Assembly (NCBI GenBank): GCA_030427885.1
Contig: JAUICM010000003.1
Span: 310,001 to 374,000 of the forward strand
DNA length: 64,000 bases
Direction of reading: 5' to 3'
DNA from: Rhodothermia bacterium
GTDB taxonomy: Bacteria; Bacteroidota; Rhodothermia; Balneolales; Balneolaceae
Positions 871 through 15,868 of the stretch are shown here, piece by piece. The stretch's first letter is position 1, and each line of letters opens with the position of its first letter. The translations under genes were made by a program, and so were the position numbers. The notes below the pieces were generated by a model. It ran no database searches. It was not told where the DNA came from and saw only the letters and a program-made list of their open reading frames with translations.

Positions 871-3303
871 CTATTTTATAAGTGTCATCCTCCTAACAGC
901 CCTAAAAGAACCGGACTTAAGTTCATAAAAATATACACCTGAAGAAATACTTGATGCGTTAAAATTAACCGTATAGGTCCCTGCTATCTGATTCTTATTT
1001 ACCAGCGTTCGGATCAACCGCCCGGTAATGTCATATACTTTCAGAGTTACAAACTCGTTGTTGGGAACTGTATATGATATTTGTGTACTGGGGTTAAATG
1101 GGTTTGGATAATTCTGGGTTAGCTCAAAATCAGCGGGAATTTCTCCCTCTCCCAAGTCTTCATTACTTACGTTTAATACAACATTAGCAGTATCAACGTA
1201 TGCACGCAGCCATTCTAAGGCAGGTCTGATTTCATTATTGCTTCGAATTAGAAACGCTTCCTGGTCATTTCTCCACAACCCTGGTCTCCAACCCCACAGG
1301 GTTACCCCCATCACTTTGGGGTGTTCCCAAAATATTGGAAACACTCTTTGGTAACGTTGTAACTGTGCCTGATCTGATTGCTCATCAGTTCCAGCAGGAT
1401 TACCATCAAGATCCATTTCTGTAGCTTGTATTGGGAGTCCAGTTGCTCCTAACATATCCAGGGTTCGTTTTATATCACCTGAAGCCGAACCTGTTGAAAA
1501 GGCATGAGATTGAACACCAATAATATCGATCAAGCCCCGGTCTTTAAGATCCTCGATAATATTCAGATACACATTTGTTGCCCCAATATTTCCAACTATT
1601 CCATAATCGTTTATCATTAGTTTTGAATCCGGAAAATATTCCCTTGCCATTTCAAACGCTGTTATGATCCAGTCATGGCCTGTTTCTCCGGTACCACCCA
1701 ACGCTTCAATATAGTTTGCCTGACCACTTTGCCCATCCGGAAGCTGGTGACCATTAGAACCTTCATTTACAACTTCTACGTAATCTAGTTCCGGATATCG
1801 CTCTGCAACTGCAGCAAACCATTCTTCAATTTCCTCGAGCTGCTCTGCTGGCTCCAGATCATTAATCCAACCTGGCTGCTGCCCTCCCCATATTAGAATA
1901 TGAAAACGAATCGGAAAGCCGTTATCCTTGGCCAGGTCATACGCTGCATCCATACCGCCCCAGTTCATTTGGTCTCTGGTGCCTTCTACACTACCCCATT
2001 TCCCTGCATTTTCCGGAGTTACCTGATTCCAGTATTGCTCAAAGTCAACAACCTGAGCTGTGGAGTATATATTTCCAAGAAATTTTTGCTTCCCTTTTGC
2101 TATAGGTTCGTAGGTTACACCGGTATCTGTGGGATCAGTTAGAGAACCAGCTGTAAGGCTGTCTAAATTTTCGACCGTAAAGAATACCGCACTATCACCA
2201 AAGGCGAACTTGTCAATATCCAGGCCATCTTCCCGCGTACCTAGCTGGAAGGTCTTGGTCAGAGAGTCCCCTTCCTCGATGACGAATGTAACCGGATCGG
2301 TGAAGTAATTATTTCTTGAAAGATTCACCCATTTCCATACTTCGGATCCAGCACCACCTGGCCCACGAACCAAATCACCACTATTAGAAAATCCGGCTGC
2401 AGCCATTCCATTTACTACTACCCAATCAGAAGAGCTATCCGGATTCTGCTCACCAAAGCCAGCGCCATAGAAGAAGCTATCATCATCAAAGGTTCCTGAA
2501 CCTGTTCTTACTCTCGCAAACAAGTCATAACCTCCTGCTCCTGGAAATGTTACTGAATATGTTACAACCCTGTCTGGCGAGCCCGGTATGAGATCTGGAT
2601 TGTTTTGCGTGGTTCTGATAAACGAAATTTCACCCTGTTCCACAGTTGTAATCTGCGCACCGAGCTCACCCGTTTCAGCTTCCACTACTACCGGCAATAC
2701 ATTTGGCCCGGAAATTCGAACACTGTCTATATAGATTGTTTTTCCAACATTGGCAGCAAAACTAAAATGAAAAGGTGCTCTGGCTGTATCAGAACCAGCT
2801 GGAGCTGTAAAGCTAAGGCTGAACTCCTGCCATTCCGTACTTAAAGATACATCACCACTCCCAATTCTACCTAATTCTGTATAATCAGGGGCAGGCAAGC
2901 CAATTGTGAAATTTGCTGTTCCACCTGCTTCTGATGCCTTTGCCCACAATTTAACATTGTAAGTTGTACCTGGAGTTACCTTGAAAGGTTCGTTTACGGC
3001 GCCCAGACTCCACTCTTCTGTTCCTGTGCTATCAACTTTTATTGCCAAAGACTTGGAGCCATCTTTAAACACGCTGTCAACAATCGCATAAGATCCGCCT
3101 GCGCCATCCTGAACAAAGAAGTTCCAACCCTCAACACTTGCAGTATCTCCGGAAGTTGTTACTTCTGAAAGTTCAAAACTCCCATTACTGTTTATATTAA
3201 TGTATTGAGCATTCACATTAATAAAAGCAACTAATGCCACAAGCACCGCTAGACCCAGTTTAGCACTACCCTTAACTCCTTTTGTAATAGCTATATTCTT
3301 CAT
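871..3303 (-). CDS. Secreted multidomain GH10 endo-1,4-beta-xylanase with two carbohydrate-binding modules and a T9SS sorting domain
   Basis: Predicted to cut internal beta-1,4 bonds of xylan outside the cell. Of 810 residues, about 1-33 are a signal peptide ending NVNAQ. Residues about 35-200 look like a CBM4/9-type module (GSFELSE, VEGWNFF) and about 205-385 like a second, CBM6/35-type beta-sandwich (VEAETGELG). The GH10 barrel covers about 395-710, with acid/base Glu514 (VVNEGSN) and nucleophile Glu629 (ATEMDLD). The C-terminus (about 730-810) is a type A T9SS domain with NYPNPFNPST and ITGRLIRTL. Oddly, the usual HTLVWH motif reads HILIWGG, so the second conserved His is replaced. The gene lies 35 bp behind the GH43 gene at 3339-5030 and is probably cotranscribed with it. 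The family call is firm; the binding-module assignments are less so. Confidence 0.9.
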   Translation of the reverse strand: MKNIAITKGVKGSAKLGLAVLVALVAFINVNAQYININSNGSFELSEVTTSGDTASVEGWNFFVQDGAGGSYAIVDSVFKDGSKSLAIKVDSTGTEEWSLGAVNEPFKVTPGTTYNVKLWAKASEAGGTANFTIGLPAPDYTELGRIGSGDVSLSTEWQEFSLSFTAPAGSDTARAPFHFSFAANVGKTIYIDSVRISGPNVLPVVVEAETGELGAQITTVEQGEISFIRTTQNNPDLIPGSPDRVVTYSVTFPGAGGYDLFARVRTGSGTFDDDSFFYGAGFGEQNPDSSSDWVVVNGMAAAGFSNSGDLVRGPGGAGSEVWKWVNLSRNNYFTDPVTFVIEEGDSLTKTFQLGTREDGLDIDKFAFGDSAVFFTVENLDSLTAGSLTDPTDTGVTYEPIAKGKQKFLGNIYSTAQVVDFEQYWNQVTPENAGKWGSVEGTRDQMNWGGMDAAYDLAKDNGFPIRFHILIWGGQQPGWINDLEPAEQLEEIEEWFAAVAERYPELDYVEVVNEGSNGHQLPDGQSGQANYIEALGGTGETGHDWIITAFEMAREYFPDSKLMINDYGIVGNIGATNVYLNIIEDLKDRGLIDIIGVQSHAFSTGSASGDIKRTLDMLGATGLPIQATEMDLDGNPAGTDEQSDQAQLQRYQRVFPIFWEHPKVMGVTLWGWRPGLWRNDQEAFLIRSNNEIRPALEWLRAYVDTANVVLNVSNEDLGEGEIPADFELTQNYPNPFNPSTQISYTVPNNEFVTLKVYDITGRLIRTLVNKNQIAGTYTVNFNASSISSGVYFYELKSGSFRAVRRMTLIK

Positions 3304-3338
3304 TTCTTAAACTATTTAGTTTTATTAGATAATTAATT

Positions 3339-5030
3339 TCAATTTTTGGAATAGCCATACATTCCGATAACTGCTCCAACAAATCCGCCAGCAACTTCTG
3401 TACTCAGTATAGTTCCATCCGCTCCTTCATAAAACAATTCCCAGTCTGAATCACTTTCTGATACTGAATAATAGAAATCGTATTCGCTGCCCCGCGCCTC
3501 TATTTTCAAGGACACTGAAGAACCTTCGAATGCAATTGATTTTAAAACCTCTTCTTCGCGACGAGTTCGTTTTCTTAGCTCGAGAAGTGTTTCATTTTCA
3601 TCATTTTGATGCACTCCAAAAAAGTAATTAAAGTCTTTATTCTGAAATGCCACCAGACCGGCTTCATCTCCTATCTCCTCTGGTTTGTATCTCATATTCA
3701 CTGAAGCACTGGCATAGGCATGCTGCTGTCTTCTGCCAATAAATGAGGGTTGACCTAGTCCGGTAATATGATCCGGCCTTGATGTAATATTCAGGCTGCC
3801 ATTACCTGTGGAGTACCATTTCTCTTTTGGTGTCCTGATAAATAGCCAATAGTCCTGCAGATCGGGCGAATCAAATTGTTCAGTAATTTTAAAATTACCA
3901 TTCATAGGAATTGCAGGTTCAGGCTGGGCTGGCAGGTCTGGCTTTTTTGCTTTTACCGGAACAGCTTCATCCCCCTCCAGAATCACCGGCCATCCATCTT
4001 TCCAGGTTACTGGCAATAAGAAGGTTTCACGACCTGTATTAAAATTTCTTCCATCATACTGGCGCACACCTAAGAATATGGTCCACCATTCTCCCGATGC
4101 TGTTTCTACCATATCAGCATGACCTGTATATGCGACTGGGAAATCCCGCTCAATAGGAATATGGCGCTGAGTAAGAATGGGATTAATTGGCCCCGGAGTA
4201 AATGGCCCTAAAGGATTATCTCCTTTAAGAACAACCTGAGAGTGATTTACACTTGTTCCGCCCTCTGCGGCATGCAAAATGTACTCTCCATTTACTTTCA
4301 TCAGATGCGGCCCTTCAATCCAGATCGGCTTTTGGGAAAGATCAATTCCACCATTGATGATTACTTTAGGCTCGCTTATGCTTTTATTTGTTTCCAGATC
4401 ATATTCTCTGATCCAAACTGCACGGTGCCCCGGATAAAGAGGCCTTCCTTCTGGCCCATCATTATTTATTACATAAACCTTTCCGTCATCATCAAAGAAA
4501 ATTGAAGGATCTATTCCGCCAACACGGTCCAGCCAAATCGGATCAGACCATGGGCCTGCAGGATCTTTTGCTGTTACCATAAAATTTCCGCCGGCATCAA
4601 CCAAAGTATTTAATACATAAAACGTACCATCATGGTATTCAATGGTTGGGGCAAAAACACCTCTGGAAATTGTCAGACTATCTACCGGTAGCTGGGAGGG
4701 CCGGTCTAAAACGTTTCCAATCTGGGTCCAGTTTACCAGATCTTTACTATGAAAAATTGGAATTCCAGGGAAATACGAAAACGAAGAATGCACCATATAA
4801 TAATCATCGCCAGCCCTTGTAATACTCGGATCCGGATAAAAGCCGGCTAATATAGGATTCAAATATTCATCATTGCCGACCTGCAAATTTTCATAAATTG
4901 GATCACTTCCTTCATATGTGAACGATGTGAAAACAGGATCTGCACTTGGCTTATCCAAACCCTGATTTTTGCATCCGGTCAAAATTAAGACCAGCATTAC
5001 AATTCCAACAATCGGTTTAATTCTATCCAT
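3339..5030 (-). CDS. GH43 lipoprotein with C-terminal beta-sandwich (beta-xylosidase / alpha-L-arabinofuranosidase)
   Basis: A 563-residue lipoprotein with lipobox LTGC at Cys20, so probably anchored at a membrane surface. Residues about 55-360 form the GH43 five-bladed propeller. The likely catalytic triad is Asp67 (YPDPSI, general base), Asp174 (GGIDPSIFFD, pKa modulator) and Glu239 (WIEGPHL, general acid). Residues about 385-563 are a concanavalin-like beta-sandwich typical of the C-terminal domain of GH43 beta-xylosidases. Expected to release xylose or arabinose from (arabino)xylan oligosaccharides. It is the first gene of a minus-strand pair with the GH10-T9SS gene and diverges from the GH10 gene at 5322, sharing an operator-rich intergenic region. 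Xylosidase and arabinofuranosidase activities cannot be told apart from sequence. Confidence 0.9.
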   Translation of the reverse strand: MDRIKPIVGIVMLVLILTGCKNQGLDKPSADPVFTSFTYEGSDPIYENLQVGNDEYLNPILAGFYPDPSITRAGDDYYMVHSSFSYFPGIPIFHSKDLVNWTQIGNVLDRPSQLPVDSLTISRGVFAPTIEYHDGTFYVLNTLVDAGGNFMVTAKDPAGPWSDPIWLDRVGGIDPSIFFDDDGKVYVINNDGPEGRPLYPGHRAVWIREYDLETNKSISEPKVIINGGIDLSQKPIWIEGPHLMKVNGEYILHAAEGGTSVNHSQVVLKGDNPLGPFTPGPINPILTQRHIPIERDFPVAYTGHADMVETASGEWWTIFLGVRQYDGRNFNTGRETFLLPVTWKDGWPVILEGDEAVPVKAKKPDLPAQPEPAIPMNGNFKITEQFDSPDLQDYWLFIRTPKEKWYSTGNGSLNITSRPDHITGLGQPSFIGRRQQHAYASASVNMRYKPEEIGDEAGLVAFQNKDFNYFFGVHQNDENETLLELRKRTRREEEVLKSIAFEGSSVSLKIEARGSEYDFYYSVSESDSDWELFYEGADGTILSTEVAGGFVGAVIGMYGYSKN

Positions 5031-12521: not shown

Positions 12522-12558
12522 GCCTAGTTCAAGTATCCGCTTGAAATCCTTGTTATGC
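12522..12558 (-). other. Degenerate attC-like site overlapping the stop of the upstream gene
   Basis: Read on the minus strand this begins GCATAACAAGGATTTCAAG, matching the left arm of the better site (ACCTAACAAGCGTTTCAAG) in the block TAACAAG-nn-TTTCAAG. It continues with a 6-nt spacer into CTTGAA and then CTAGGC, a poor copy of a GTTRRRY end. TTCAAG/CTTGAA form a perfect inner stem. The TAA of the preceding gene lies inside GCATAAC, as is common for integron cassettes. The right arm is weak, so the site may be decayed. Confidence 0.4.
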
Positions 12559-13020
12559 CCAGTATTTGTTTAAACTTTGATCTGTAGCTTTTCCTATCAA
12601 GTATTCCTCAAAGTTATCAACCAAGCGAGATCGCTTTTTTATATAACCTTCAAAAATAAGATTATACCTATCCTTATAAATTTCCATTGCATCAGGTAGT
12701 GTTTCCCCAATTTTTGAGACAACAGACTTCAAAAAATCTTCATTGGTTTTCTTGAGTCTATCAATTTCATGTGAATAAGAAGAATAGTCTCCGACAACAA
12801 CAATTCTTGGCATGAAATCTTTGAACCAGTACAAGTGGCCTAAGCTGATATCTAAATATTGATCTCTCCTGTCCCAAGAAGTACCAAACCAAAGGTCATT
12901 CTTTCGATACAAAATTTCCGGTTTTATTAGATTGATCAACCTAATCTCATGGAACCCATTTTCAATTAATGTGGGTCTAAGAAACTTTTCCACGATTTTT
13001 TGATACTCAGATTTACTCAT
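12553..13020 (-). CDS. Hypothetical protein, 155 aa, probable integron cassette gene
   Basis: The frame is open from 13098, but the first 26 codons lie in the attC-like element, so the ATG at 13020 (MSKSEYQKIV) is preferred. The product is a small cytoplasmic alpha/beta protein without signal or membrane segment (FLRPTLIENGF, DLWFGTSWDRRDQ, LDISLGHLYWF). No family was recognised with confidence; its size and style resemble the unknown proteins common in cassette arrays and single-domain immunity-like proteins, but that is only an impression. It lies between the attC-like sites at 13023-13168 and 12522-12558, so it would be a complete cassette with its own site at its 3' end. Confidence 0.65.
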   Translation of the reverse strand: MSKSEYQKIVEKFLRPTLIENGFHEIRLINLIKPEILYRKNDLWFGTSWDRRDQYLDISLGHLYWFKDFMPRIVVVGDYSSYSHEIDRLKKTNEDFLKSVVSKIGETLPDAMEIYKDRYNLIFEGYIKKRSRLVDNFEEYLIGKATDQSLNKYWA

Positions 13021-13022
13021 GG

Positions 13023-13168
13023 GTATAACGACCCGACGTTTAAGCGGCGCAGGTTCTCGGTTTTTGTTGAAGTAACTGAATATTTTTATTGCCCACAAGC
13101 TTTCCAGCGAACCCTACCGGAGCCTGCACTGATGAAGATCAGGGCCCGACTTGAAACGCTTGTTAGGT
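13023..13168 (-). other. Integron attC-like recombination site (146 bp)
   Basis: Exactly fills the gap between two minus-strand genes. On the minus strand it starts ACCTAAC (fits RYYYAAC) and ends GTTATAC (near GTTRRRY). Inside, the left arm has CGTTTCAAGTCGG (13146-13158) and the right arm is complementary to CGTTTAAGCGG (13037-13047). The two arms therefore pair except for two bases, the C in TTTCAAG and the T in AAGTCGG, which would be extrahelical. An unpaired base in this arm is a defining attC feature and sets the orientation: the cassette gene is the one at 13174-14103. The middle, about 98 nt, is variable as in long chromosomal attC sites. Confidence 0.7.
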
Positions 13169-13173
13169 GCTTA

Positions 13174-14103
13174 TTAACTTTTATCAATCTCAGAATCAGT
13201 CTTAAGTTTTCTTACCGCAATATTTCCTGCTCCCTCTCTGGCTGGAATAATTTGTTGAATTTCTACAGTATCAAGGTGGAGTTTACTTCCTGATTCAGTT
13301 TTCTCAACTTTTGTAATGGTAATCATTAAACCAAGTGTACGTTCTTGTTCTTCTTCTAATGACCCCATATGTCCCATATATAAGGAAGATTCGAAACGTT
13401 TGGGCTTATATTCCAGCTTTTCTAAAACCATCGAAACTAAAGCATCAAGATGAATTAAACCATTAGCAATAGTTTCATAAGCATCTAGTTCATTTTTATA
13501 AAGAAATTTATCGCCCGATTTTGTTTCTGGGTTATCCGGAAGTAAAACTAGAATTTGACCCGGATCTTTTGTGTAACTGAAAAATGTATGGTCTACCAAA
13601 GCTATATAATGCTCATTTAGGTCTCGCAGATTCCTAATTAATAACCCGTTTTTTTCCCAATAAGCAGATACTAAAGTTGAAGTGTATTTATCAAATCCAT
13701 ACTTAGTAAGTCCATTCGTAACTGCCTTTCGAAAACTAGCAGGAACTGATTTCTTTATTTCAAAGAGACCTTGAAAAATTTCTAGTAGTAAATTTTGCAT
13801 GTTTACTAATTGAGAAAGAGCAGCAGGAATCTGTGAGTAAACTTCGAATAGTGGTTCAACAGAAACAGAGATTCTTCCGTTATCTGGAAATTTAATCTGT
13901 TTTATGTATGATCTAACAATGTTAACAGACGCCTGTTCAGCTGAATACATTCTTTCTAAGCTATAAAGAACACAAGAAGCCCTATAAAGAAAATGCTCGA
14001 TTTTAAGAGTGAGTTTTTCATTAGGTTTCTTAATGTTTTCAAGAGCGGAATTCAGTTCTTGAAAAAACTCTCGGTCATTCAGTAGTCTTGGTAAATACCG
14101 CAA
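13174..14103 (-). CDS. Hypothetical protein, 309 aa, probable integron cassette gene
   Basis: Not recognised. The longest frame begins with TTG at 14103; an in-frame TAA lies a few codons upstream and the first internal ATG is about 50 residues in, so TTG is the likely start. The product is mostly helical and cytoplasmic (SALENIKKPNEK, MQNLLLEIFQGLFEIKK, HLDALVSMVLEKLEYK), with a short beta-rich C-terminus (LGLMITITKVEK, LHLDTVEIQQI). The stop codon lies 6 bp from the attC-like site, the usual cassette layout. It resembles a nucleotidyltransferase-partner or other accessory helical protein no more than anything else; function unknown. Confidence 0.7.
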   Translation of the reverse strand: MRYLPRLLNDREFFQELNSALENIKKPNEKLTLKIEHFLYRASCVLYSLERMYSAEQASVNIVRSYIKQIKFPDNGRISVSVEPLFEVYSQIPAALSQLVNMQNLLLEIFQGLFEIKKSVPASFRKAVTNGLTKYGFDKYTSTLVSAYWEKNGLLIRNLRDLNEHYIALVDHTFFSYTKDPGQILVLLPDNPETKSGDKFLYKNELDAYETIANGLIHLDALVSMVLEKLEYKPKRFESSLYMGHMGSLEEEQERTLGLMITITKVEKTESGSKLHLDTVEIQQIIPAREGAGNIAVRKLKTDSEIDKS

Positions 14104-14475
14104 AATAAATATTTATTTAAAGCTTACTACCACCTGTTATATGCAAAGCACCTAGCTTAGTATTAAGCGAACAGAGGAAAATGGATATTGTTCGCATAAA
14201 ATCCTAAGAGTTTCATTGTTAATGAGATAAGTCCTCCCTTCAGGAGCCTGTGCTGAACTCGTTTCAGCAAGGTGAGGTTTTCCGCTTGCGGAAAAATCGG
14301 AGGGTGTTCGTTGGGGCTTTTGCTTTGTTCGAGTACCGCACACCCCTCCCCCGCATTCGCGGGTACTCCCCTCAAGGGGAGACTTTGTAAAGTTTGATAT
14401 AAAACAGGTGGATGAGCCTGTAAAACCCTCCTACTTAATTCGGCTTGTTTCCGTGTATTTATTTCTGCTTTTTTG
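14104..14475. repeat. Intergenic region with dispersed repeat copy 1 (14232-14385)
   Basis: This 372-bp gap holds no credible gene. Positions 14232-14385 carry a repeat built of nested palindromes, including CCGCTTGCGG and CTCCCCTCAAGGGGAG. Its last 115 bp (14271-14385) match 15754-15868 at 109 positions, in the same orientation. Compared with copy 2, the beginning carries an extra segment (about 14241-14270). The short stretch 14104-14170 next to the cassette gene contains GTTATATGC and GCACCTAGC, which loosely recall attC ends but form no convincing site. Confidence 0.75.
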
Positions 14476-15738: not shown

Positions 15739-15868
15739 TCCTCCCTTGAGGGAGGTGAGGTTTTCCGCTTGCGGGAAAATCGGAGGGTGTTCGTTGGGGC
15801 TTTTGCTTTGTTATCATACCGCACACCCCTCCCCCGCATCCGCGGGTACTCCCCTCAAGGGGAGACTT
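15739..15868. repeat. Dispersed repeat copy 2
   Basis: Begins directly after the stop codon of the DUF6263-like gene. It contains the palindromes CCTCCCTTGAGGGAGG, TTTTCCGCTTGCGGGAAAA and CTCCCCTCAAGGGGAG. Its last 115 bp match copy 1 at 109 positions. A remnant TCCTCCCTTGAGGG recurs at about 16011-16024. Confidence 0.8.

Follow-up and report, generated by a model that had tools for sequence, protein, structure and literature searches.

A gene-cassette cluster headed by an attI-like site without an adjacent integrase gene in a Balneolaceae genome

Based on our analysis of a 64,000-nucleotide stretch of a Balneolaceae genome (the window, C5:310001-374000), we conclude that positions 13023-13168, minus strand, are a genuine integron attC site. 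The site belongs to a cluster of two gene cassettes, which probably arose by IntI-type recombination into a stand-alone attI-like site (14156-14205, minus strand) with the distant IntI acting in trans. An earlier note on this DNA had described the attC element; it had overlooked the attI-like site, a second cassette that ends in half an attC, and the recurrence of stand-alone attI sites across the family, a pattern to which the window conforms.

The element lies at 323023-323168 of contig C5 and reads, on the minus strand from 13168 to 13023, ACCTAAC-AAG-CGTTTCAAGTCGG ... CCGCTTAAACG-TCGGGTC-GTTATAC. Its parts are R'' (ACCTAAC, 13162-13168), L'' (CGTTTCAAGTCGG, 13146-13158), L' (CCGCTTAAACG, 13037-13047) and R' (GTTATAC, 13023-13029), and it displays the AAC...GTT core boxes with a G|TT crossover. 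The earlier note spoke of inner arms that pair around unpaired bases, and this description stands: in the predicted bottom-strand fold the two arms form 11 paired bases, with A 13149 and G 13153 extrahelical. R' is one base away from GTTRRRY, like several sites of the main array of this genome, and a strict GTTRRRY pattern scan misses most true sites here because many of them end in GTTATxx. The identification is carried by a covariance model (R1) built from 15 main-array attC sites of the same genome, with the window site excluded. This model matches 13023-13168 with 71.6 bits and a genome-wide E of 9.1e-12, as one of 36 matches over the genome at E <= 1, which confirms the 146-bp attC-like element as first delimited. 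A near-identical sibling is found in the main array at C5:534233-534378. The folding energy of the site is at chance level (z -0.65 and -0.95, not significant); the hairpin alone is thus no evidence and was left out of the argument. A scan of the whole window with Rfam returned no family at threshold and is uninformative on this point, since to our knowledge Rfam holds no attC model. The ordinary energy for the composition would suit a chance palindrome, an unrelated repeat or a terminator, but this reading is refuted by the match of the held-out model, the tandem sibling sites, the complementarity at the cassette boundaries and the presence of an IntI in the genome, and we give it practically no credence.

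The genome (4.15 Mb, 13 contigs) encodes a complete integron, made up of IntI, attI and a divergent attC array, at C5:529-540 kb. The intI gene (C5:529079-530041) is on the same contig as the window attC, 206 kb from it. It matches the integron integrase family TIGR02249 at C5:529082-530026 with 436 bits (cut-off 265), and the remaining matches to this family in the genome are tyrosine recombinases under the cut-off. The protein has 320 residues, aligns over its full length with Vibrio cholerae IntI4 (PDB 2a3v, the closest structure; E 1.7e-82) and is 48.7% identical to the plasmid class 1 IntI1; its nearest counterparts are in Gracilimonas mengyeensis (80%) and an uncultured Balneola (76%), which makes a Balneolaceae bacterium the most likely host. 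The region peculiar to IntI between the catalytic boxes and the R, H-R and Y blocks are all present, and it is the single active-looking IntI of the genome. A tyrosine recombinase encoded on C10 was considered as a second integron integrase and ruled out, being XerC/D-like and not IntI. The description of the window as an integrase-less cluster therefore holds locally, where no intI is present, but not for the genome, which has one 206 kb away. A covariance-model match, a true integrase and further attC sites in the genome and its relatives, whose joint absence the earlier note had named as grounds for giving the site up, have all been found.

The main array runs divergently from intI and comprises, over 10 kb, small genes each followed by a palindromic site of 90-146 bases (AACAAGCGTTT[CT]AAG...CCGCTTAAACGCCGGGTCGTTA), with 15 complete attC sites (14 by pattern and one more divergent). 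Its first cassette starts G|TTATGCTT and the attC of that cassette starts AAGCATAAC, in keeping with the cassette rule. One two-gene cassette of this array encodes the anti-phage defence system Septu (PtuA 538 bits, PtuB 241 bits; L011 3412-5306, C5:538412-540306). The cassette gene at L009 19387-19782 is by eye a candidate small GIY-YIG nuclease, with no match in PADLOC. Judging from the R1 matches there are about 36 attC sites over the genome, and those outside the main array are found on C10, C8, C2, C3 and elsewhere on C5.

The window cluster consists of two cassettes on the minus strand. Cassette 1 extends from crossover to crossover over 13029-14155 (start ...AAG|CTAGGTGC, end ...GGGTCG|TTATAC) and contains a gene for 309 amino acids at 13174-14103, with a TTG start as listed. 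This cassette owns the complete attC, so that the orientation and the cassette gene proposed at the outset are upheld. Its start, at 14148-14156, complements the extended R'' in 8 of 9 positions (GCTAGGTGC vs GCACCTAAC) at a distance of 986, as is the case in integrated cassettes. Cassette 2 begins G|TTATACCC-ATG, the start codon of its 155-residue gene (12553-13020, minus strand) following directly on the boundary, and finishes GGGCATAAC-AAGGATTTCAAGCGG. This end is the left half of an attC (GCATAACAAGGATTTCAAGCGG, 12537-12558, minus strand), recognized in the sequence and by pattern scan, with the L'/R' half missing. The protein of cassette 1 belongs to no Pfam, NCBIfam or PADLOC family, and family and PADLOC searches likewise assigned that of cassette 2 to no known family. 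No homologue of the cassette 1 gene exists in 129 genomes of the order, and a direct sign of its movement between species is therefore absent. A left half-attC without L'/R' also closes the main array (L011 ~5710), so both of the distal ends inspected have this form; a mirror case, a right half-attC that has lost R''/L'', is located behind a stand-alone attI-like site at L158 7255-7342 (C8:27255). With one complete and one half attC, the window falls outside the CALIN definition of IntegronFinder 2, which asks for at least two attC sites and no neighbouring integrase.

The two cassettes begin exactly at the attI-like site (ATTTTATGCGAACAATATCCATTTTCCTCTGTTCGCTTAATACTAAG|C, 14156-14205). No intI adjoins it, the nearest being 206 kb away, and no intI remnant was detected upstream. 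The 47 bases ahead of the crossover correspond in length and motifs to the main attI. A position weight matrix (PWM) built from 12 intI-adjacent attI sites was run over 368,880 positions of loci from this genome, which had been preselected for attC content, a cassette head being only one position per locus. Its top five positions are the main attI, the C10 head, the C2 head, window 14156 and the C8 head; the window thus ranks fourth, with a modest attI score. Two further PWM positions, C8:27583 and window 15183, are inside coding sequence and were judged to be chance. An attI profile model (R3), from whose training set the window and C8 sites were left out, has its sole match of the 64-kb window at 14158-14205 with an E of 2e-4, a value to be taken as rough, as for all models this short. 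The attI-bearing module (14157-14238, minus strand) is 88% identical to C8:26727-26807, also located directly ahead of a cassette, and the two copies diverge at the crossover point. The last 45 bases of the module are 82% identical to the head of a single perfect cassette in a genome of another genus (G023), in which no intI was found at E <= 1e-60. The crossover of the window copy reads G|CT and not G|TT, which is intact at C10, C2, C5 and C3 and in relatives. Upstream of the site, 14270-14385 is occupied by an intergenic repeat with many partial copies over the genome, and the interval 14110-14475 has 33 matches in the same genome. This repeat family (AAGTCTCCCCTTGAGGGGAG...), present in the window at 14270-14385 and 15753-15868 and elsewhere in dozens of partial copies, flanks the attI-like site both here and at C8. 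Phage records contained no match to the site.

Could the cassettes have been placed by IntI into an unrelated, G|TT-like genomic position, an attG site? Off-target insertion by a distant IntI is one of the routes proposed for CALINs (PMC8618304; Loot et al. 2024, as cited in PMC11023631), and an intI does exist 206 kb away. However, about 50 bases of the left flank of the window cluster show homology to attI and keep its spacing, a feature common to two other cassette heads, whereas attG sites are said to diverge from the classical att sites (PMC12901181). The attI homology of the target makes this reading very unlikely.

The arrangement is seen at six other places in the genome and in relatives; this is read from the sequence, as are the identity of the attC, the boundaries of the cassettes, the homology to attI and the lack of a detectable intI remnant nearby. 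Away from the main array, seven clusters of this genome, the window among them, have a 5' end that could be located, and all seven start at an attI-like site; outside this count stand a cluster at a C8 contig end with no visible head and two C10 sites at 253.7-254.5 kb with no assigned head. An additional attI-like site, C12:248273, has no attC that we could find behind it. In 16 relatives a second model (R2) recognized 29 attI-like sites at E <= 0.1, seven of which adjoin intI or a partial intI. Of the other 22, 13 are followed on the same strand by an attC no more than 5 kb downstream, against a chance expectation of about 1.2% per site, and none by one on the opposite strand. The complementarity of cassette start and R'' is perfect in many of the cassettes behind these stand-alone sites. 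When R3 was applied more widely, to 127 genomes of the order, 28 of them proved to contain attI-like sites, with at most ten in any one genome; the R3 training sites are included in this count, and attC was checked behind only part of the matches. At G003:C4:764008 (L155 4008-4060) an attI-like site is present at the far side of an array, where it has its own attC downstream and is separated by 6 kb from the main attI of that integron. Another intI-less attI, well preserved, heads the C10 cluster (L094 11381-14413, C10:262.4-265.4 kb), which has a recombinase gene of the xerC/D type about 2 kb away.

How did such sites come to stand alone? One possibility is that a full second integron existed here and lost its intI, leaving the attI end and two cassettes as an ordinary CALIN. 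CALINs have been proposed to arise by loss of intI (PMC8618304), and remnants of the gene do occur at three other stand-alone attI sites, so that some clusters descend from integrons now devoid of intI. C2:670564 (L096 ~3300-3564, C2:670.3-670.6 kb) keeps the first seven residues of IntI, MGKSKLL, 193 bases from attI, near the position expected from the 206 bases of the main integron, and one relative (G017) has a partial intI and a 40-residue remnant at two stand-alone sites. C10:262381 retains the region between intI and attI. For some clusters, namely that at C2:670564 and two in G017, loss of intI is the correct explanation. Against it stands the picture at the window and at most other stand-alone sites, which have no intI remnant. 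Most stand-alone sites follow an unrelated gene of the same orientation at a distance of about 55-500 bases. Within a genome, copies are 88-97% identical (window and C8 88%; G031 97% over -130 to +3; G017 about 96%) and begin at -74 to -137, extending further up in G017, and run to the crossover; the intI part is absent from them and a different cassette follows each near-identical copy. These three features, sites without remnants, intI-free modules and differing cassettes, favour attI copies dispersed around the genome, and for the window we lean towards this explanation; loss of a local intI, followed by its complete deletion, is a possibility to which we assign a clearly smaller share. No empty copy of the window locus was found in relatives, and the DUF6263 neighbour was unusable as an anchor for synteny, its homologues being only 22-26% identical. 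The G023 locus, a dock at an M1-peptidase gene, has no clear orthologue in its genus and hence offers no pair of filled and empty sites.

According to the preferred explanation, IntI (C5:529079-530041) would bind the folded bottom strand of attC and join cassettes to attI at G|TT. Extra copies of attI without intI around the genome would also receive cassettes, the window being one such place, where the distant enzyme would act in trans. A single enzyme may in this way serve many docks around the chromosome, while some of the clusters are possibly, in part, leftovers of integrons that lost intI. We tentatively extend this into a broader proposal, to which we give somewhat less than even weight, of a distributed integron: the Balneolaceae attI would be a dispersing module of about 75-135 bases that ends at the crossover and is copied behind unrelated genes, and a single trans-acting IntI would load different cassettes at up to about ten docks per genome. 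The window copy itself is now probably inactive or nearly so, its present state frozen, in view of its G|CT crossover and of a last attC cut in half.

The notion that integrons are exotic in these bacteria and were acquired by this lineage proved too strong. Of 59 relatives, 28 have an intI at E <= 1e-60, in 27 cases above the cut-off, and 42 have attC sites of the same type. In a tree of 28 IntI, made with a quick method, the Balneolota proteins form one group (support 98) next to Ignavibacteriota. By this spread and this tree, integrons are old and widespread in the order and long-standing in the group. In four relatives (G023, G018, G005 and G033) attC is present with no intI match at E <= 1e-60, and cassettes thus seem to persist after the integrase is lost. 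Bacteroidota had already been listed as hosts of integrons (PMC8618304), and complete integrons are on record for the Bacteroidetes/Chlorobi group, such as that of Salinibacter ruber M1, a related non-proteobacterial host (PMC9024848). Our literature search, conducted largely outside the subscription journals, found no publication naming both integrons and Balneolaceae.

Sedentary chromosomal integrons such as the Vibrio cholerae superintegron (IntI4/IntIA) share with the present system the IntI family, a divergent array, attC sites that are homogeneous within a genome, the G|TT crossover and an R'' complementing the cassette start. Here, in contrast, much of the attC content is off the main array, in clusters headed by attI-like sites that lack intI, whereas the usual view assigns one attI to each integron (PMC3607928). 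CALINs, as defined by IntegronFinder, resemble the window in having cassettes and attC sites with no intI nearby and an intI elsewhere in the genome; however, the window is below the two-site threshold of IntegronFinder 2 (PMC9024848) and possesses an attI-like head, a feature of which we found no description for CALINs. Sites of the attG type (Loot et al. 2024, as cited in PMC11023631 and PMC12901181) likewise receive cassettes away from the integron, but the target here is a homologue of the native attI and, going by those citing papers, not a divergent genomic site. The delta-attI of class 1 and class 2 integrons (PMC12901181) are also attI sequences outside their canonical place; those are fragments inside cassettes of mobile integrons, unlike the modules of about 50-135 bases described here, which are at chromosomal loci and head clusters. 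In the literature covered, which was mostly that outside subscription journals and did not include the attG paper itself, several or orphan attI sites were represented only by attI-like off-target cores and delta-attI fragments. Provisionally, stand-alone attI docks at the head of cassette clusters are apparently undescribed.

What are the implications of such docks for integron biology? Genome surveys find cassette clusters without an integrase about as often as integrons (PMC9024848), and the origin of these clusters, by off-target insertion, intI loss or rearrangement, is unsettled (PMC8618304). Nearly all the clusters of one genome, and many in its relatives, are headed by a recognizable attI. 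This points to capture at real docking sites rather than at random ones and opens the question to testing. Were many docks served by one integrase, the integron would be a genome-wide system and not a single platform, and tools that seek only intI or attC would overlook the docks. Should the broader proposal of a distributed integron be true, cassettes could enter many expression contexts rather than a single array.
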